NCBI RefSeq assembly: GCF_020618415.1 | Contig: NZ_CP085345.1 | Location: 744,001 to 808,000 of the forward strand | DNA: 64,000 nucleotides | DNA from: Cupriavidus sp. MP-37 | GTDB lineage: Bacteria > Pseudomonadota > Gammaproteobacteria > Burkholderiales > Burkholderiaceae | Reading direction: 5' to 3' | Notes under the pieces: generated by a model | The model's database searches: none | What the model saw: the letters and a program-made list of their open reading frames with translations, nothing else | What the model was told of the DNA's origin: nothing | Position numbers and translations under genes: made by a program | Shown: piece by piece, positions 14,070-22,404 of the stretch | How the letters are laid out: each line of letters begins with the position of its first letter | Position numbering within the stretch: the first letter of the stretch is position 1

Positions 14070-14819
14070 CTAACGCCGCACGCAGGCCTTGTAGGTGAAC
14101 TTGTCGCCCCGGAACATGAATTCCGAAAACGCCAGTGGGCGGTCGTCGATGTCGTGCGGGGTGAAGCGGATGCGCAGCAACGGCTCCCCCGGCCCGACCT
14201 TCAGCCGGCGCGCGCTTTCCGCGCTGGCGGGGATCGCCGCGCTTTCGGTGTGCAGGTACTTCAGGCGATAGCCCAGGCGCGCCTCGACGATCATCAGCGC
14301 ATCGTTGTTTTCCAGGTCGTGTTCCAGGATCGCGCGCATCAATGGCTCCGGCGCCATGGTCATGCCCACGGCCACCGGCACGCCGGCCACCGACTTGAGC
14401 GTGGTCACGCTCAGCAGCTTGCTGCCGGGCGGCACCCGCAGCGCATCGGCGGCAATGGCAGGCGCGGTGATCAGCCGCGTCGACAGCAGCTTGCCGTGCG
14501 CTTCGTGGCCACGGGCGCGCATGTAGTCGTAGAAGCCGGTCAGCGGTCCCAGATCGGCCTGCCCCGCCGGGCGGCTGACAAAGCTGCCCTTGCCGTGGAC
14601 CGTCTCGATCAGCCCCTCCGCCAGCAGCGATGCCAGCGACTGCCGCACGGTGATGCGGCTGACGCCGAACTCCGCCATCAGCTCGGCCTCCGACGGCAGC
14701 TTGATGCCCGGTGTCCATTCGTTGTTGACGATGCGCTGGCGCAGCGCGCCTTCGATCTGCTTGAAGCGGGGCAGTGAGCTGGTTGTCACGGGATTGTGCG
14801 GATTCATGGGATGGCCCAT
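14070..14819 (-). CDS. GntR-family regulator, HutC/UTRA subfamily
   Basis: A 249-aa regulator. A winged helix lies at about 15-80 (LPSEAELMAEFGVSRITVRQSLASLLAEGLIETVHGKGSFV), followed by a UTRA ligand domain (about 100-245, chorismate-lyase fold). It is divergent from the CoA ligase-DUF1254-Bug operon. The intergenic region is unusually AT-rich and contains several related dyads, so it probably represses that operon until an effector appears. Met1 or Met5 could be the start. Confidence 0.87.
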   Translation of the reverse strand: MGHPMNPHNPVTTSSLPRFKQIEGALRQRIVNNEWTPGIKLPSEAELMAEFGVSRITVRQSLASLLAEGLIETVHGKGSFVSRPAGQADLGPLTGFYDYMRARGHEAHGKLLSTRLITAPAIAADALRVPPGSKLLSVTTLKSVAGVPVAVGMTMAPEPLMRAILEHDLENNDALMIVEARLGYRLKYLHTESAAIPASAESARRLKVGPGEPLLRIRFTPHDIDDRPLAFSEFMFRGDKFTYKACVRR

Positions 14820-14831
14820 GCGGGCATCTAC

Positions 14832-14871
14832 TTATCATAACAACGTTGACTCATCATAACATGTCATGACA
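14832..14871. promoter_or_regulatory. cluster of GntR-type operator dyads
   Basis: An AT-rich island between divergent genes holds TTATCATAACAA (14832-14843), a second ATCATAACA (14853-14861), and the perfect palindrome TGTCATGACA (14862-14871). Repeated half-sites of TTATGATA type suggest cooperative binding by the adjacent HutC-type regulator. The assignment is inference. Confidence 0.5.
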
Positions 14872-14966
14872 ACATGAGCCGGCACAACCATGACAAGACG
14901 CGCGGCGCCAGTCCCCCAGGGGCCACTACGTGACGGCGCACGCATACGGAGATACGGAGACAATCG

Positions 14967-17153
14967 ATGCCAGACCTGAGTGCATTGCTGCAACCGCGCA
15001 CCATCGCCGTGATCGGCGCTTCCACCCAGCCCGACAAGGTGGGCGGCATGCCGGTGCGGCTGCTGAGCGAGCTGGGCTACGCCGGACGCATCGTCCCGGT
15101 CCACGCGACCGCCAGCGAAGTGCAGGGGCTGGCCGCGGTGCCGACGCTGGACGCGCTGGATACGCCCGCCGACCTTGCCATCGTGGCCCTGCCGGTCAGC
15201 GCCAGCCTCGACGCGATGCGCCAGCTGGCGCGCAACGGCACGCGCGCCGCGGTGTTCTTCACCTCGGGCTTTGCCGAGACCGGTGGTGACGGCATCGCGC
15301 TGCAGGCCGAACTGGCGGCGCTGGCGCAGGCCCATGGCATCACGCTGCTCGGGCCCAACTGCCTGGGCGCGATGAACCTGCGCGAGCGCGTGTTCGCCAC
15401 CTTCTCGCCGATCCCGCTCAGCGGGCTGCCGCCGGTCGGCGATGTCGGCCTGGTCAGCCAGAGCGGCGCTTTTGGTGCCTATGCCTTCGCGCTGGCGCGC
15501 GAGGCCGCGCTGGGCCTGAGCCACTGGGTCACCACCGGCAATGAAGCGGGCCTGCATGTGGCCGACGTGATCGAATGGATGGCGCGCGACGATGCCACGC
15601 GCGTGATCCTCGCCTACCTGGAAGGCTGCCGCGACGGCAACCGCCTGCGCCGCGCGCTGGCGGCAGCGCGGGCAGCGGGCAAGCCGGTGGTGGTGACCAA
15701 GGTCGGCACCACCGAAGCCGGCGCGCGCTCCGCGCAATCGCATACCGCCAGCCTGGCGGGCGAAGATGCGGTCTACCAGGCGGTGTTCGACGAGTACGGC
15801 GTGTTCCGCGCCGATACGCTCGATGACTTCTTCCGGCTCGGCTACGTGCTGTCGCGCGGGAGGCGCCCGACGCGGTGGCAGCCCTCGGCAAAGGAGCCGG
15901 CCAATGCCGTCACCCCGGTCGCGCTGGTCACCGTCTCAGGCGGCGTCGGCATCATGATGGCCGACCAGGCCGAGGCGCTGGACCTGCCGCTGCCGGCGAT
16001 GCCCGCAGCCGCCGCCGCAGCGCTGCGCAGCGCGATTCCGTTCGCCAGCACCGCCAACCCCATCGACGTCACCGGCCAGGTGGTGGCGCAGCCGGAAGTA
16101 TTGCTGGACGCCATTGCCGCGGCCGCGCAAAGCGCGGATTACGGCAGCGTGGTGGCCTTCCTCGCCGGCGGCGTGGGCGCGCCGCGGATCTGGCCCGGGC
16201 TGCAGCAGACCGTCGAGACCCTGTACCGCAGCGGCAACGCGGCGCCGCTGCTGTTCAGCGGCCTGGTCGATGACGACAAGCGCCGCTGGCTGGAAGCGCG
16301 CGGCGCGCTGGTGTTCCGCGAACCCGCGCACGCGGTGCAGGCCGTGGCCGTGCTGGCCCGCGCCGCGGCGCAGGCAGCGGCTGCACGGGCGCCTGGCTGC
16401 GCAGCGGCCGCCGCAGACACCGTGCCCGTTCCCGATGTGCTGCCCGGCACCACCGCCTTGTCCGAGTTCGAAGCCATGCAATGGCTGGCCGCGTGCGGCA
16501 TCCCCACCGCGCCGCACGGCCTGGCGCGCGATGCCGACGAGGCCGTGCGCCTTGCCCAAGCCATCGGCTACCCGGTCGCGATCAAGCTGTGCTCGCCCGA
16601 CATCCTGCACAAGAGCGACGTCGGCGGCGTGGTGCTGAACGTGGCGGATGCGCAGGCGGCACGCGCTGCCTTTGCGCAAGTGCAGGCCGCCGCGGCCCGC
16701 CACGGCACTCCTGCGCGCTTTGACGGCGCGCTGGTCGCCGGCATGGTGCGCGGCTGGGGCGAGCTGGTGGTGGGCGTGCGGCGCGATCCGGTGTTCGGCC
16801 TGGTGGCGCTGGCCGGCATCGGCGGCACCGCGGTGGAGATCTTCCGCCAGACCGCGTTCGGGCTGGCGCCGCTCAGCCATGCCCGTGCGCGCACCATGCT
16901 GCGCGCGAGCCGTGCCGAGGCCCTGCTGAACGGCCACCGCGGCCATCCCGCGATCGATGCCGAGGCGGTGGCCGAGGTGCTGGTGCGCGTGTCGCAGGCC
17001 GCTGCCGCGCTGGGCCCGCGGCTCGACACCATCGAGATCAACCCGCTGATCGTCACCGCCCGCGGCGTGGTCGCCGCCGATGCCGTGGTGACCCTGCATG
17101 CGGCAGGCCCCGATCGCCACGCAGACAGACAAACCCAGGAGACCATCCGATGA
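14967..17153 (+). CDS. acetate--CoA ligase family protein (ADP-forming acyl-CoA synthetase, fused subunits)
   Basis: A 728-aa protein with, in order, a CoA-binding Rossmann domain (TIAVIGASTQPDKVGGMPVR), a flavodoxin-like CoA ligase domain, a second ligase domain, and a C-terminal ATP-grasp domain (from about 500; YPVAIKLCSPDILHKSDVGGV). The likely phosphohistidine is H259 in QSHTASLAGEDA. It should make an acyl-CoA from a carboxylic acid and ATP with ADP and phosphate as products. Its stop overlaps the next start (ATGA), so it is coupled to the first DUF1254 gene. The acid used is unknown. Confidence 0.85.
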   Translation: MPDLSALLQPRTIAVIGASTQPDKVGGMPVRLLSELGYAGRIVPVHATASEVQGLAAVPTLDALDTPADLAIVALPVSASLDAMRQLARNGTRAAVFFTSGFAETGGDGIALQAELAALAQAHGITLLGPNCLGAMNLRERVFATFSPIPLSGLPPVGDVGLVSQSGAFGAYAFALAREAALGLSHWVTTGNEAGLHVADVIEWMARDDATRVILAYLEGCRDGNRLRRALAAARAAGKPVVVTKVGTTEAGARSAQSHTASLAGEDAVYQAVFDEYGVFRADTLDDFFRLGYVLSRGRRPTRWQPSAKEPANAVTPVALVTVSGGVGIMMADQAEALDLPLPAMPAAAAAALRSAIPFASTANPIDVTGQVVAQPEVLLDAIAAAAQSADYGSVVAFLAGGVGAPRIWPGLQQTVETLYRSGNAAPLLFSGLVDDDKRRWLEARGALVFREPAHAVQAVAVLARAAAQAAAARAPGCAAAAADTVPVPDVLPGTTALSEFEAMQWLAACGIPTAPHGLARDADEAVRLAQAIGYPVAIKLCSPDILHKSDVGGVVLNVADAQAARAAFAQVQAAAARHGTPARFDGALVAGMVRGWGELVVGVRRDPVFGLVALAGIGGTAVEIFRQTAFGLAPLSHARARTMLRASRAEALLNGHRGHPAIDAEAVAEVLVRVSQAAAALGPRLDTIEINPLIVTARGVVAADAVVTLHAAGPDRHADRQTQETIR

Positions 17154-18463
17154 ACCAACCCGCTGCGCCCTTCCTTGCCGGCGCTCCCATCGACACCCCG
17201 CAGGAAGCCCTGACCGCCGCGGCGGCACTGCCGCTGGTGCTGGCCACCTACCCGTTGTTCGAAAGCCTGCGCACCTGCCGGCTGCAGACTTCGGTGGCGC
17301 AGGCCACCGGCTATGGGCGCGCGCCGGTCAACACGCTGTCGGCCAGCACGCAGCCGTGGACCCACCGCGACCGCGACATCGTCACGCCGGCCAACGACCT
17401 GCTCTACTTCTGCGCCTGGGTCAACCTGGCCGACGGCCCCGTCACGCTGCATGTACCCGCGCTGCCGGACGCGCGCCGCTACTACGTGGTGGAACTGCTC
17501 GACGCCTGGACCAACAACTTCGAAAACCTGGGCCCGCGCAACGTGCCCGCCGCGGGCGCCGACATCGTGCTGGCCGGCCCGGGCCAGCACGCCGAGGGCG
17601 CACACGTGGTGCATTGCCCGACCTCGCTGGTCTGGCTGCTCGGCCGGGTGCTGGTGACCGGCGCCGACGACCTGCCCGCCGCCAGCGCCTTCGAAAACGG
17701 ATTCCGCCTGTCCGGCGGCAGCGCGCGGCAGCCCGAGTGCGTGCGCGACTGGCACGACAGCGGCGAACCGGCGCTCGACTACTTCGCCAACGTCTTCAAC
17801 GCGCTGCGCGAATACCCGGCCGAGCCTTCCGCAGCGGGCCTGCTGTCGCTGCTGCGCAAGTGCGGCATCCGTGCCGGCGAGGCGGTCGACGTGGGCGCGC
17901 TGCGGCCCGCGGTGCAGCAGGGCCTCGCGCGCGCCTGGCGCGAAGGCATGGCGCTGATCGAAGCCAATACCCGCAGCCATGCGCGCAAGAGCTGGACCTA
18001 CAGCCTGCTGCTGGGCCGCTATGGCGACGACTGGATGCAGCGCGCGGTGACCGCGATGAAGGGACTGGGCGCACTGCGCGCCGACGAAGCCGTCTACGCC
18101 GCCGCCGACTACGATGCCGACGGCGAGCTGCTGCATGGCCGCCACACCTACGCGCTGCACTTCCCGGCCGGACACCTGCCGCCGGCGCAGGCGTTCTGGT
18201 CGGTCTCGCTGTACGGCGCCGACCGCTTCTTCACCGACAACGCGATCGGCCGCTATGCGCTGGGCGACCGCAGCCCCGGCCTGCAATACGATGCCGATGG
18301 CGGCCTCACCCTCACCATCTCGCACCGGCGCCCCGAGCAGGCACAGGAAAACTGGCTGCCGGCACCGGACGCCCCGTTCTACCTGATCCTGCGCCTGTAC
18401 CACCCCACCGACGGCTTCATGGCCGGCGACTACGTGATCCCGCCGCTGCGGCGCATCGCCTGA
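17150..18463 (+). CDS. DUF1254/DUF1214 protein, first of a tandem pair
   Basis: A 437-aa protein with an N-terminal DUF1254 domain (TPANDLLYFCAWVNLADGP and RRYYVVELLDAWTNNFENLGPRN) and a C-terminal DUF1214 domain (ALHFPAGHLPPAQAFWSVSLYG, QENWLPAPDAPFYLILRLYHPTDG split across the Asp-Ala). No signal peptide is visible, so it should be cytosolic, unlike many family members. The family has no established reaction. ATGA overlap with the CoA ligase and the paralogue immediately downstream suggest the two work together, perhaps as a heteromer. Confidence 0.8.
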   Translation: MNQPAAPFLAGAPIDTPQEALTAAAALPLVLATYPLFESLRTCRLQTSVAQATGYGRAPVNTLSASTQPWTHRDRDIVTPANDLLYFCAWVNLADGPVTLHVPALPDARRYYVVELLDAWTNNFENLGPRNVPAAGADIVLAGPGQHAEGAHVVHCPTSLVWLLGRVLVTGADDLPAASAFENGFRLSGGSARQPECVRDWHDSGEPALDYFANVFNALREYPAEPSAAGLLSLLRKCGIRAGEAVDVGALRPAVQQGLARAWREGMALIEANTRSHARKSWTYSLLLGRYGDDWMQRAVTAMKGLGALRADEAVYAAADYDADGELLHGRHTYALHFPAGHLPPAQAFWSVSLYGADRFFTDNAIGRYALGDRSPGLQYDADGGLTLTISHRRPEQAQENWLPAPDAPFYLILRLYHPTDGFMAGDYVIPPLRRIA

Positions 18464-18475
18464 AGGAGCCCGCCC

Positions 18476-19792
18476 ATGGCAACCCATGACATTTCCCTCG
18501 ACACGCTTGCCTGCGACGCGGTGCGCTACACGCTGCCGCTGTACGAAATGGCGCGCATGCGCGCCGCCACCTGCCCGCGGCGCGACAGCAGCGGCAGCTT
18601 TGCCGGCGACGGCCCCGATTCCACGCTGCGCTGGATCAACACCGTCACGCACGTGCGCACGCTGCTCGGGCCGCAACACCGGCAGGTCGTCACGCCGAAC
18701 AACGACACGCTCTACACCAACGCCTGGCTCGACCTGTCGCGCGGCCCGCTGCTGCTGGACGTGCCCGACTGCCACGGCCGCTACTACGTGCTCGGGCTGC
18801 TCGACGCCTATACCAACCCGTTCGGCTACATCGGCACCCGCACCACCGGCACGCACGGCAGCACCTGGCTGCTGCACGGCCCCGGCTGGCAGGGCGAGGT
18901 GCCGGCCGGCGCGACGCCGCTGCCCTGCCCCACCGATGCGGTCTGGATCATCGGCCGCATCCTGGCCGACGGCGCAGCCGACCTGCCCGGCGCGCATGCC
19001 TTGCAGGACGGCATCCGCCTGCGCCGGCCCGACGGCACCGCTGCCGCGAGCGTGATCGACGCCGGCATGCACGCCGGCGAGCGGCCCGGCGATCCCGACC
19101 GCTACGCCGCCATCGTGCGGCGCATGCTGGCCGAGAACCCGCCGCCCGCGGCCGAAGCGGAGCTGGTGCGCAGCTTCGCCGCCGCCGGCATCGGCAGCGC
19201 GACGCCGCTGACGCCGGCGCAACGGACCGCGCTGGCCACGGCCCTGGCCCAGGTCGATGCCGAACTCGCCGCGCCCAGGGCTTCCGCGCTGGGCGGCGGC
19301 TGGTCCCTGCCGGTGGACATCCGCACCTCGTTCGGCTCGCACTACGCGCTGCGCGCCGAGGTGGCGCGCAACTACATCGGCGCGCTGGGGGTCGAGGAAG
19401 CCATGTACCTGATGGCCGATTGCGATGCCGACGGCCTGCCGCTGGACGGCACCCACCAGTACGAGCTGGTGTTCCCCGCGCAGGGCTTGCCGCAGGTTGG
19501 CGCGTTCTGGTCGCTGACCATGTATCGCAAGTCGGACTGCATGCTGGCCGAAAACCCGCTGCAGCGCTATTCGCTGGGCGACCGCTCGCCGGACCTGCGC
19601 GCGGCGCCCGATGGCAGCCTGCGCATCGTGCTGGGCGCGCGCGGCCCGGCGGACCCGGCTGGTGCCGGCAACTGGCTGCCAGCGCCGCCCGAACCGTTCT
19701 ACGTGGCGCTGCGCCTGTACGTCCCCGGCCCGGCGCACCTGGAACGTACCTTCCGCTACCCCGCCATCCGCCGCATCAAGGAACCCTTATGA
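18476..19792 (+). CDS. DUF1254/DUF1214 protein, second of a tandem pair
   Basis: A 438-aa paralogue of the preceding gene with the same two domains: TPNNDTLYTNAWLDLSRGP, GRYYVLGLLDAYTNPFGYIG, then ELVFPAQGLPQVGAFWSLTM and GNWLPAPPEPFYVALRLYVP. No signal peptide. It follows after 12 bp with GAAGGAG as ribosome binding site, and its TGA overlaps the ATG of the Bug gene. Equal length and colinear domains point to duplication followed by strong divergence. Function is unknown. Confidence 0.8.
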   Translation: MATHDISLDTLACDAVRYTLPLYEMARMRAATCPRRDSSGSFAGDGPDSTLRWINTVTHVRTLLGPQHRQVVTPNNDTLYTNAWLDLSRGPLLLDVPDCHGRYYVLGLLDAYTNPFGYIGTRTTGTHGSTWLLHGPGWQGEVPAGATPLPCPTDAVWIIGRILADGAADLPGAHALQDGIRLRRPDGTAAASVIDAGMHAGERPGDPDRYAAIVRRMLAENPPPAAEAELVRSFAAAGIGSATPLTPAQRTALATALAQVDAELAAPRASALGGGWSLPVDIRTSFGSHYALRAEVARNYIGALGVEEAMYLMADCDADGLPLDGTHQYELVFPAQGLPQVGAFWSLTMYRKSDCMLAENPLQRYSLGDRSPDLRAAPDGSLRIVLGARGPADPAGAGNWLPAPPEPFYVALRLYVPGPAHLERTFRYPAIRRIKEPL

Positions 19793-20769
19793 ACCGAACC
19801 ATTGTCTTCGCCAGGGCCGTGCTGGCGGCCAGCGTGGCGCTGCTGTGCCTGGGCGGCCAGGCCCAGGCGCAAACCTATCCGTCGCGGCCGGTCAAGCTGG
19901 TGTCGCCCTACGGCGCCGGCGGCTCCAACGACATTTCGGCGCGCATCCTCGCCGACGCGCTGGGCAGCAAGCTCGGCCAGCAGGTGGTGGTCGAGAACAA
20001 GCCCGGCGCCGGCACACGGCTGGCCACGGAGCATGTGGCGCATGCCGCGCCGGACGGCTATACCCTGCTGTGGGCGGCCGCGCCCTTCGCCATCAACACC
20101 GCCGCGGGCATCGCGCAGCGCTACGATGTGCACAAGGATTTCGTTGCGGTGGGGCCGCGCGTGCTGGGGCCGATCTTCCTGATCGTCAACGCCAACTCGC
20201 CGGCACGCACGGTGGCGGACTTCGTGCGCCTGGCCAGGGAAAAGCCGGACGGCGTGACGGTGGCCTCGCCCGGCGCGGGCTCCGGTCCGCACCTGACCGC
20301 CGAGCTGTTCGGGCAGGTCGGCAAGTTCAAGCTGCTGAGCGTCCACTACCGCGGCGACGCCACCGCCTATACCGAACTGCTGGCGGGCCGCGCCGATGCC
20401 ACGCTGACCGCCATCACCTCGGCGCTGCCCTTCATCAAGGCCGGCAAGCTGCGCGTGCTGGCGGTGGCGTCGGAACAGCGCACGCCGGTCTATCCCGATG
20501 CGCCCACCTTCGCCGAACAGGGCTACCCGGGCATGGTCGGCTATGGCTGGTTCGGACTGGTCGCGCCGGCCGGCACGCCGCCCGCCATCACCGAACGGCT
20601 GAACCGCGAGGCGTCGGCCGTGCTGGCCGATGCGCACACCCGCAGCAAGCTGCTTGGCCTGGGCCTGGAGCCGCATCCCGAGCGCGGCAGCGCGTTCTCG
20701 GCCTTTATCGACCAGGAGATCGGCAAATGGGGCAAGCTGATCCAGGCGCGCGGCATCAAGCTGGACTAG
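19789..20769 (+). CDS. Bug-family periplasmic solute-binding protein (TTT transporter type)
   Basis: A 326-aa protein with a Sec signal peptide ending AQAQ-TYPSRP. The mature part has the Bug pattern: YPSRPVKLVSPYGAGGSNDI, VVVENKPGAG, APDGYTLLWA, and a domain II with HYRGDATAYTELLAGRADA. These proteins bind carboxylic acids and deliver them to TctAB-type permeases or act as sensors. It overlaps the DUF1254 stop as ATGA. No TctA/TctB genes are in the window, so it is an orphan binding protein or shares a distant permease. Confidence 0.87.
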   Translation: MNRTIVFARAVLAASVALLCLGGQAQAQTYPSRPVKLVSPYGAGGSNDISARILADALGSKLGQQVVVENKPGAGTRLATEHVAHAAPDGYTLLWAAAPFAINTAAGIAQRYDVHKDFVAVGPRVLGPIFLIVNANSPARTVADFVRLAREKPDGVTVASPGAGSGPHLTAELFGQVGKFKLLSVHYRGDATAYTELLAGRADATLTAITSALPFIKAGKLRVLAVASEQRTPVYPDAPTFAEQGYPGMVGYGWFGLVAPAGTPPAITERLNREASAVLADAHTRSKLLGLGLEPHPERGSAFSAFIDQEIGKWGKLIQARGIKLD

Positions 20770-20821
20770 CGCAGGGGCGCAAGCCAACCATGACATTGCA
20801 TAAACAGGAGACCACGCCAAC

Positions 20822-21844
20822 ATGATGACCGTTGTCCGTTTTTCGCCGCGGCAGCGCGGCAAGCTGCTGCTGGCCACGCTGCGCTGGCTCGGCGTCGCGG
20901 CGTTCGCCGCCGCGCCGGTTGCCGCGCCGGCACAGGGCAGCTATCCGGCCAAGCCCATCCACCTGATCGTCGCCTATCCGCCGGGCGGCCTCACCGACAC
21001 GCTGGCGCGCGCCGTCGGCGACGGCCTGTCGCGCCAGCTGGGCAAGACCGTGGTAGTCGAGAACAAGGGCGGCGCCGGCGGCATCATCGGCACCGACTAT
21101 GTCGCCAAGGCGGCGCCCGACGGCTATACCCTGCTGATGACGATTCCGGGGCCGATCACCGCCAACCTGGCGCTGTACAAGAAGCTGCCCTACGATCCCC
21201 GCACCGACCTGCGCCCGGTCTCCGACATTGCCACCGCGCGCACCGTGCTGGCGGTCAACAGCAGCGTGCCGGCCAAGACCGTCGCCGAGCTGCTGGCCTA
21301 TGCCAAGGCCTCGCCCGGCAAGCTGCGCATGGGTTCGTGGGGCGCGGGCACGCAGCCGCATACCATCCAGACCTATTTCGCCAGGCAATACCAGGTCGAC
21401 ATGCTGCACGTGCCCTACCGCGGCGAAGGGCCGATGGTGACCGACCTGCTGGCCGGCCAGGTCAACGTGACGGTGGGTTCGGTGACCGCGCTCAAGCAGC
21501 ATTTCGCCACCGGCAAGCTGCGTCCGCTCGCCGTCACCGGCACGCGGCGCGCGCAGGCGCTGCCGGATGTGCCGACCTTCACCGAAGCCGGCTACGCCGA
21601 CGAGCCGTTCCGGCTGACCGGGCCGATCACGCTCATGGCCCCGGCGAAGACGCCGCAGGAGATCATCGACCGCCTCGGCCGCGAAACCGCCAGCCTGGTC
21701 GCCAGCGCCGACATGCAGCGGCGCATCGTCGACATGGGCGCGGAACCGCTGGGCACCACCCCGGCGCAGGCAGAGGCGGCCTACAAGGCTTACCTGCCGG
21801 TGGTGCTGAAGCTGACCGCGGATACGGGGGTGACGCTGGACTGA
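20822..21844 (+). CDS. Bug-family periplasmic solute-binding protein
   Basis: A 340-aa protein. The signal peptide is long (positively charged to residue 18, cleavage near APAQG). Typical Bug motifs follow: YPAKPIHLIVAYPPGGLTDT, VVVENKGGAGGIIGTDYVAK, APDGYTLLM and VPYRGEGPMVTDLLAGQV. It is the second binding protein of this operon, 52 bp after the first, and differs substantially from it. The pair probably recognises different forms of the operon's substrate. Confidence 0.86.
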   Translation: MMTVVRFSPRQRGKLLLATLRWLGVAAFAAAPVAAPAQGSYPAKPIHLIVAYPPGGLTDTLARAVGDGLSRQLGKTVVVENKGGAGGIIGTDYVAKAAPDGYTLLMTIPGPITANLALYKKLPYDPRTDLRPVSDIATARTVLAVNSSVPAKTVAELLAYAKASPGKLRMGSWGAGTQPHTIQTYFARQYQVDMLHVPYRGEGPMVTDLLAGQVNVTVGSVTALKQHFATGKLRPLAVTGTRRAQALPDVPTFTEAGYADEPFRLTGPITLMAPAKTPQEIIDRLGRETASLVASADMQRRIVDMGAEPLGTTPAQAEAAYKAYLPVVLKLTADTGVTLD

Positions 21845-21912: not shown

Positions 21913-22404
21913 ATGAAAACGCTGCTGATCGTCTTTCACACCATGACTGGCGGCACGCGCCAGATGGCCGCGGCCGCCGCCGACGCGGCGCGCCGACAGC
22001 CCGGCGTCACGGTCGTGCTCAAGACCGCCGCCGAGGCCGGCCCCGACGATGTGCTGGCCGCCGACGGCTACCTGTTCGCCACCCCGGAAAACCTGGCCGC
22101 GATGGCGGGCATGATGAAGGACTTCTTCGACCGCTGCTATTACGCCGCGCTCGACCGCATCAATGGCCGGCCCTACGCCGCCATGATCTGCGCCGGCAGC
22201 GATGGCCAGAACGCACTGCGCCAGCTCGAGCGCATCGCCACCGGCTGGCGCCTGAACCGCGTTGCGCCCGGGCTGATCGTCTGCACGCATGCGCAGACGC
22301 CGGAGCGCATCCTCGCCCCCAAGCAGATCGAAGCAGCCGATCTGGCGCGGTGTGCCGAGGTTGGCGAAGGGCTGGCGGCGGGGCTGGGGCTGGGGGTGTT
22401 CTGA
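21913..22404 (+). CDS. flavodoxin-fold NAD(P)H-dependent oxidoreductase
   Basis: A 163-aa protein with the flavodoxin phosphate loop at the start (LLIVFHTMTGGTRQMAAAAADAA split) and the FMN segments FATPENLAAMAGMMKDFFDRCYY and AAMICAGSDGQ. It should bind FMN and act as a soluble quinone or flavin reductase. It lies 68 bp after the second Bug gene and may or may not share its transcript. Confidence 0.78.
   Translation: MKTLLIVFHTMTGGTRQMAAAAADAARRQPGVTVVLKTAAEAGPDDVLAADGYLFATPENLAAMAGMMKDFFDRCYYAALDRINGRPYAAMICAGSDGQNALRQLERIATGWRLNRVAPGLIVCTHAQTPERILAPKQIEAADLARCAEVGEGLAAGLGLGVF

Follow-up and report, generated by a model that had tools for sequence, protein, structure and literature searches.

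What two adjacent members of the DUF1254/DUF1214 protein family contribute to a bacterial operon with an acyl-CoA ligase is the question raised by a locus of Cupriavidus sp. MP-37. The locus is on the second contig (2.5 Mb) of the 6.1-Mb genome (assembly GCF_020618415.1, contig NZ_CP085345.1), in the stretch of 64,000 nucleotides that was analyzed as a whole (positions 744,001 to 808,000, forward strand; here termed the window). A single-chain ADP-forming acyl-CoA ligase of 728 aa (14967..17153, + strand; Pfam CoA_binding_2, Succ_CoA_lig, and ATP-grasp_5) is followed on the same strand by two DUF1254+DUF1214 proteins, DUFa (17150..18463; 437 aa; Pfam, 2.5e-37 and 1.3e-34) and DUFb (18476..19792; 438 aa; Pfam, 1.3e-50 and 1.3e-31), and by two TctC-type solute-binding proteins, Bug1 (19789..20769; 326 aa; Pfam TctC, 2.8e-62) and Bug2 (20822..21844; 340 aa; Pfam TctC, 5.2e-65). 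A GntR-type regulator of 249 aa with a UTRA domain is divergently oriented (14070..14819, − strand; Pfam GntR, 2.3e-21; UTRA, 4.8e-24). This gene set and its ATGA overlaps, ligase/DUFa at 17150 and DUFb/Bug1 at 19789, had been reported in a preliminary description of the window and were present as claimed, with the domains of all six genes scoring above the Pfam gathering scores; DUFa and DUFb are separated by 12 bp and Bug1 and Bug2 by 52 bp. The operon is of a known kind (Bug proteins, an ADP-forming ligase, and acyl-CoA catabolism) to which a constant new component, the DUFa/DUFb pair, is added. Its catabolic setting is well supported. We tentatively propose that it serves uptake, the first step, and activation in a catabolic route and that DUFa and DUFb together would form one cytosolic enzyme acting before CoA activation.

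In the synteny survey that the preliminary description had called for, the ligase-DUF1254-DUF1254-Bug block proved to be conserved and operon-like. Locus tallies rest on tblastn; gene calling by codon usage was unreliable in two of the numbered loci (L062 and L115). Among 200 Burkholderiaceae genomes, a clear DUFa orthologue was detected in 24, and 20 of these belong to the window's genus, which contributed 22 genomes to the set. In each of the 24, a same-clade ligase was near DUFa, beside it at ≥60% identity in 21 and about 4 kb away at 44 to 45% identity in 3. One of the 21 ligases is broken (genome G184, a 403-residue match); a separate 49% ligase in that genome is one gene from another DUF1254 gene. 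When 60 Cupriavidus genomes were surveyed, 58 had a DUF1254/DUF1214 match, 49 had DUFa (≥63%), and 47 had the ligase (≥65%), all within those 49; the ligase was in none of the 11 genomes lacking DUFa. The resulting Fisher P value (47/49 against 0/11; 2.3e-10) overstates the independence of related genomes, as do the binomial figures, for which the background of 4.6% is a rough upper bound. The ligase and DUFa are within ∼1.3 kb on one contig in 46 of the 47 genomes and split over contigs in the 47th. Thus, the finding that would have spoken against the preliminary description, DUF1254 genes not standing beside this ligase elsewhere, did not occur: the genes are side by side in 46 of the 60 Cupriavidus genomes. 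DUFa was found without the ligase in G210 and G223, the latter matching Cupriavidus necator UYPR2.512 (L080) by coordinates. In that locus the ligase has been lost, so that DUFa comes immediately after the regulator, and DUFb is broken; L080 and the copy with the broken ligase in G184 (L047) appear to be decaying operon copies.

These surveys reject the explanation that the DUF1254 genes are chance neighbors or passengers of a ligase operon, which we consider scarcely credible. Related ligase loci (37 to 41%) without a labeled DUF1254 gene (L143 to L146) could be cited for it, including the ∼41% ligases of G145 and G177 (L145 and L146), which have no such gene within the 20 kb around, and so could plasmid pBB2, on which a ligase, Bug genes, and genes for metallo-β-lactamase-like (MBL-like) proteins occur with no DUF1254 gene in 29 kb. 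Chance association is opposed by retention over four families, kept gene order and overlaps, and the strict co-occurrence in Cupriavidus.

DUFb is ∼40% identical to DUFa, and each chain contains both family domains (PF06863 and PF06742) above the gathering score. In a tree of DUF1254 proteins, built by a quick method from 135 of 168 rows after 18 loci were dropped as presumed duplicates and with several long branches flagged, DUFa and DUFb formed clades of 58 and 52 rows, and a third clade, DUFc (7 rows), was sister to DUFb. The DUFa and DUFb clades each span Cupriavidus/Paraburkholderia (Burkholderiaceae), Comamonadaceae, Noviherbaspirillum (Oxalobacteraceae), and Verticiella (Alcaligenaceae), so that the tree argues for an ancient duplication retained across four families of Burkholderiales. 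DUFa was accompanied by DUFb or DUFc somewhere in the genome in all 62 named loci, if the DUFb pieces of UYMMa02A are counted, and DUFb was near DUFa in 55 of the 62, with a median gap of 70 bp. The seven exceptions are C. numazuensis and C. pinatubonensis, with a 69% DUFb elsewhere in the genome; UYMMa02A, with the pieces at 68 to 70%; and four genomes of the C. gilardii/C. cauae group, which have only a DUFc-class relative (43 to 45%). Evolutionary distances over 41 loci were correlated between DUFa and DUFb (0.94), DUFa and ligase (0.91), and DUFb and ligase (0.86). The partial correlations were 0.72 for DUFa-DUFb given the ligase, 0.56 for DUFa-ligase given DUFb, and 0.09 for DUFb-ligase given DUFa; these mirror-tree values carry no P value. 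They favor DUFa and DUFb as closest partners and are not proof of contact.

The DUFa/DUFb pair occurs more consistently than the ligase. In six loci of Paraburkholderia (P. tropica, twice, P. haematera, P. nodosa, P. unamae, and P. madseniana), a major facilitator superfamily (MFS) gene is followed by DUFa and DUFb, and the ligase is absent; P. oxyphila and Burkholderia guangdongensis have the order MFS-ligase-DUFa-DUFb. P. solitsugae (L129) also lacks the ligase, which makes seven Paraburkholderia genomes. Their best ligase matches genome-wide were only 36 to 40% identical, and one genome gave no match within the E-value limit. L115 likewise lacks the ligase and has a second DUFb-like gene upstream. 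Because the pair is kept where the ligase is absent, it does not depend on this ligase, and the ligase-less loci suggest that the pair may work before CoA activation.

If the pair instead worked after activation, on the CoA thioester from the neighboring ligase (for example, in a hydratase- or hydrolase-like step), the tight coupling of ligase and DUFa, with its ATGA overlap, the co-occurrence in Cupriavidus, and the extent to which DUFa distances track those of the ligase (the partial correlation of 0.56) would all be expected. We regard this order as rather unlikely, given the seven Paraburkholderia genomes that have the pair without this ligase and the relatives of the pair that appear to be exported to where CoA thioesters are not expected. 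The N-termini of DUFa and DUFb, judged by eye, do not have the look of signal peptides, which agrees with their earlier designation as cytosolic proteins. By the same inspection, members of the clade sister to DUFa, DUFb, and DUFc have lipoprotein-like N-termini, and several other relatives appear to have signal peptides. Since members of the family are apparently also found outside the cytosol, their chemistry should be independent of ATP, NAD(P)H, and CoA. It is from the ligase-less loci and the exported-looking relatives that we infer both the order of steps and the type of reaction.

When 41 DUFa, DUFb, and two exported sequences were aligned, the invariant columns included, in DUFa numbering, D83, Y86, D118, R166, W350, S351, Y355, N401, R415, and Y417. 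The closest uncharacterized proteins with solved structures are VPA0106 (PDB 3u07) and VPA0735 (PDB 2p3y and 3vb9) of Vibrio parahaemolyticus, which gave whole-length profile matches of 2.3e-59 and ∼1e-38, respectively, and are still named uncharacterized or hypothetical. They share eight of the selected residues with DUFa and DUFb (D118, R166, W350, S351, Y355, N401, R415, and Y417); D83 is not conserved in VPA0735 and Y86 is not conserved in VPA0106. These polar and aromatic residues form a candidate active site, and because the set is intact in DUFa and DUFb alike, neither looks like a dead subunit. It is conceivable, if unlikely, that the pair is non-catalytic and serves as a binding, carrier, or assembly partner for the substrate or the ligase; in the parts of the literature that our search reached, no enzyme activity was shown for the DUF1254/DUF1214 family. 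Against such a role stand the persistence of the pair without the ligase and the conservation of polar residues, in DUFa and DUFb as well as in distant relatives, to a degree that binding alone would not require.

Structural modeling of a Malassezia DUF1214 protein led to a jelly-roll comparison and to the proposal of a glycoside hydrolase-like function, as described in the portion of the source that was available (PMC4634964). A function of this sort is very improbable for DUFa and DUFb, as there were no sugar genes among their labeled or Pfam-scanned neighbors, and the recurrent neighbors are acyl-CoA and carboxylate genes. Two further occurrences of the family were recorded. The window genome has a second pair of DUF1254 matches (C2:1180899-1182616, in L059, G000:C2:1172000-1191900), ∼3 kb from a TctA permease gene, and Pseudomonas aeruginosa plasmid pUM505 (L151, NC_016138.1 57061-74275) has a DUF1254 gene after DUF1302 and DUF1329 genes, between AraC-type regulators. 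None of the gene contexts obtained from plasmid records of distant relatives was revealing of function.

The ligase has the CoA-binding, Succ_CoA_lig, and ATP-grasp_5 domains and the SHT histidine of the ADP-forming (NDP-forming) acyl-CoA ligase superfamily. An SHTAS motif with His259, which we take from the enzyme family to be the phosphorylated residue, was present in the ligases of 38 of the 41 loci, the window included. The best solved relatives are 3-hydroxypropionate- and 4-hydroxybutyrate-CoA ligases, with 4-hydroxybutyrate ranked first by profile search. The window ligase resembles the NF045492/NF045493 ligases (PDB 9y43 and 8wzu) in domain content and SHT motif and matches 8wzu (1.8e-132) across nearly the whole length, but it scores only ∼330 bits against curated cut-offs of 1200 to 1300 (for the 4-hydroxybutyrate-CoA ligase model NF045493, 328.2 bits against 1300) and is thus not one of these equivalogs.

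The best solved relatives of both Bug1 (5.3e-54) and Bug2 (1.9e-57) are terephthalate-binding proteins. In the PDB, the nearest matches of the two are terephthalate-binding proteins, Bug27, and BugD, and these matches do not fix a ligand; the window operon differs from other Bug (TctC) operons of Betaproteobacteria in carrying the DUFa/DUFb pair. The two TctC proteins have no TctA alongside, so the operon does not encode a recognizable tripartite tricarboxylate transporter, although TctB was not searched for. Orphan Bug proteins without a permease have been described for Cupriavidus metallidurans and Bordetella, according to the portion of that work available (PMC5994714).

A 48-bp block between the regulator and the ligase (14828..14875) varied hardly at all among the aligned intergenic regions (10 of 10), in contrast to its flanks, and contains an imperfect 16-bp palindrome (14854-14869). 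This pattern is as expected of an operator, and the block is a predicted operator/promoter region. The UTRA regulator was matched by tblastn in 7 of the 62 named loci, six from close Cupriavidus and one from Verticiella (L131; 37%); in other Cupriavidus an IclR-type regulator takes its place. A flavodoxin-like gene that follows Bug2 (21913-22404) is probably not a member of the operon: it had tblastn matches in close relatives only, and in L040 and L076 it is separated from the block by other genes.

The genes found next to the block in other genomes suggest what may follow activation. In five named Cupriavidus loci (L084, L085, L088, L089, and L101, from C. campinensis, C. numazuensis, C. pinatubonensis, Cupriavidus sp. 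amp6, and LEh25), the block lies next to genes for a family III CoA-transferase, an enoyl-CoA hydratase, two acyl-CoA dehydrogenases, and further Bug proteins, with a porin gene too in three of the five. The window genome has the same genes, together with that of an MBL-like protein, 45 to 55 kb downstream of the operon and outside the window (L138, G000:C2:808001-827900). The set comprises genes for a porin, a Bug protein, two acyl-CoA dehydrogenases, an enoyl-CoA hydratase, and a CoA-transferase, which are divergent from a LysR-type gene, the MBL-like gene, and another Bug gene. These genes probably make up the other half of the pathway and would have become separated from the first in this clade. 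A regulon shared by both halves through the same operator was considered and rejected on the absence of the exact 10-bp operator core from L138 and its occurrence at five places in the genome. The acyl-CoA dehydrogenases of C. campinensis L049 had PimC (TIGR03204) and PimD (TIGR03203) as best NCBIfam models (9.8e-101 and 7.1e-93), at about half the cut-offs for pimeloyl-CoA dehydrogenase; the genes for such dehydrogenases are not in the window.

The MBL-like protein (L138:10794-12047; 417 aa; Lactamase_B and Alkyl_sulf_dimr domains) has relatives in L084, L116, L131, L132, L139, L140, and L067. Its short form was detected in 8 loci by tblastn and 7 by clustering, the eighth (L121) also scoring for the long form. 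The gene was full length in 27 of the 60 genomes of the genus, 26 with DUFa and one (G201) with an adjoining 40% DUF1254 relative. It was ≤4 kb from a DUF1254 gene in 15 of the 27 and 10 kb in one; in nine of the remaining 11, the window genome included, it was 42 to 85 kb from DUFa on the same contig. In Noviherbaspirillum and Verticiella it adjoins the ligase. The protein lacks HxHxDH and has SHGHxGYN-type residues in its place; the metal site of the family is unusual and possibly altered or lost. Because HxHxDH is missing, it is not a standard alkylsulfatase, and no SCP2-like C-terminal domain, as in type III alkylsulfatases (SdsA1/Pisa1-like), was found in the short protein. Plasmid pBB2 of C. 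necator N-1 (L147, NC_015724.1 174448-203599) encodes an ADP-forming ligase, three Bug proteins, two MBL-like proteins, an α/β hydrolase, and an IclR regulator, and the lack of a DUF1254 gene in that stretch speaks against a fixed role of the MBL-like protein.

Other versions of the block bear on the class of substrate. A Pisa1-like sec-alkylsulfatase (1.3e-189 in L114) was near the block in 10 of the 62 loci, all from Limnohabitans, Comamonadaceae, or unclassified Burkholderiales. These or neighboring loci also encode an AMP-binding protein, a zinc alcohol dehydrogenase, and a short-chain dehydrogenase/reductase; a ferredoxin was identified in L114 only and a CYP153-type P450 and an FMO-like protein in L115 only. 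The Limnohabitans/Comamonadaceae version (L112 to L119, L130, L134, and L135) may be a (cyclo)alkyl oxidation cluster. The Comamonadaceae version resembles what is seen, in the part of the source available, of the putative slf operon of Psychrobacter plasmid pP62BP1, which combines an alkyl sulfatase with two dehydrogenases and a fatty acid-CoA ligase, but that ligase is of the AMP type and medium-chain, no DUF protein is named in that part (PMC3346939), and the short MBL-like protein of the DUF clusters is without HxHxDH. Plain alkyl sulfate breakdown was rejected on the missing motif, on the lack of a sulfatase in the window operon, and on the smaller number of genomes with full-length MBL-like genes than with DUFa (27 versus 49 of 60). 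The work on the DNAN demethylase shows that cleavage of an aryl methyl ether is within the reach of proteins with partial similarity to alkylsulfatases (PMC11631463), which serves as a lead only. Taken together, the alkylsulfatase-type neighbors, PimC/PimD-like dehydrogenases, and terephthalate-binding-type Bug proteins point to aliphatic or alicyclic, perhaps dicarboxylic, compounds as the likely substrate class, with no single compound named.

In the route that we tentatively favor, the compound would be captured by a Bug protein (or, in Paraburkholderia, enter through an MFS carrier in that place). DUFa and DUFb, as a cytosolic heteromeric enzyme, would then act on the compound in its free form after import, with no need for ATP, NAD(P)H, or CoA, in a reaction of the hydrolase, lyase, or isomerase type whose product would be a carboxylic acid. 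The ligase would convert this acid to its CoA thioester with ATP via the conserved His259, and acyl-CoA dehydrogenases, enoyl-CoA hydratase, and family III CoA-transferase may carry the breakdown further.

Several observations weigh against this proposal. The proposed order depends on the loss of a gene in a single genus and on N-termini judged by eye, and the ligase-less species could use an unrelated ligase. Comamonadaceae ligases are only 34 to 38% identical to that of the window, and the SHTAS pattern is missing from the three whose genes were called in full. The dehydrogenases and the MBL-like protein are not constant partners, there being no full-length MBL-like gene in 23 of the 49 genomes with DUFa, and the exact operator core is not found beside the distant gene set. 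Furthermore, the operon has no dedicated permease; the nearest of five TctA genes lies beyond the window, ∼21 kb upstream of the ligase. The earlier suggestion of an uptake-plus-activation route stands in part: the conserved block and the acyl-CoA, porin, and MFS genes of its relatives make such a catabolic route the natural reading, with uptake itself a presumed step.

No description of this operon was found in those parts of the open-access literature that the search covered. The operon gives the uncharacterized DUF1254/DUF1214 family a metabolic setting and a two-protein unit, so that its function becomes testable. It is possible, although we hold it to be doubtful, that DUFa and DUFb are the first recognizable functional unit of the family, an obligate two-paralogue, cofactor-free enzyme that would start the breakdown of aliphatic or alicyclic acids, esters, or ethers by a reaction not yet described, joined in some species by an MBL-like partner that would have lost the canonical metal motif. 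If this is true, the same chemistry would be a starting point for understanding the exported bacterial members and the Malassezia DUF1214 protein. The substrate of the ligase would be the product of the DUF pair, and the regulator with its predicted operator could serve as a sensor for the compound.

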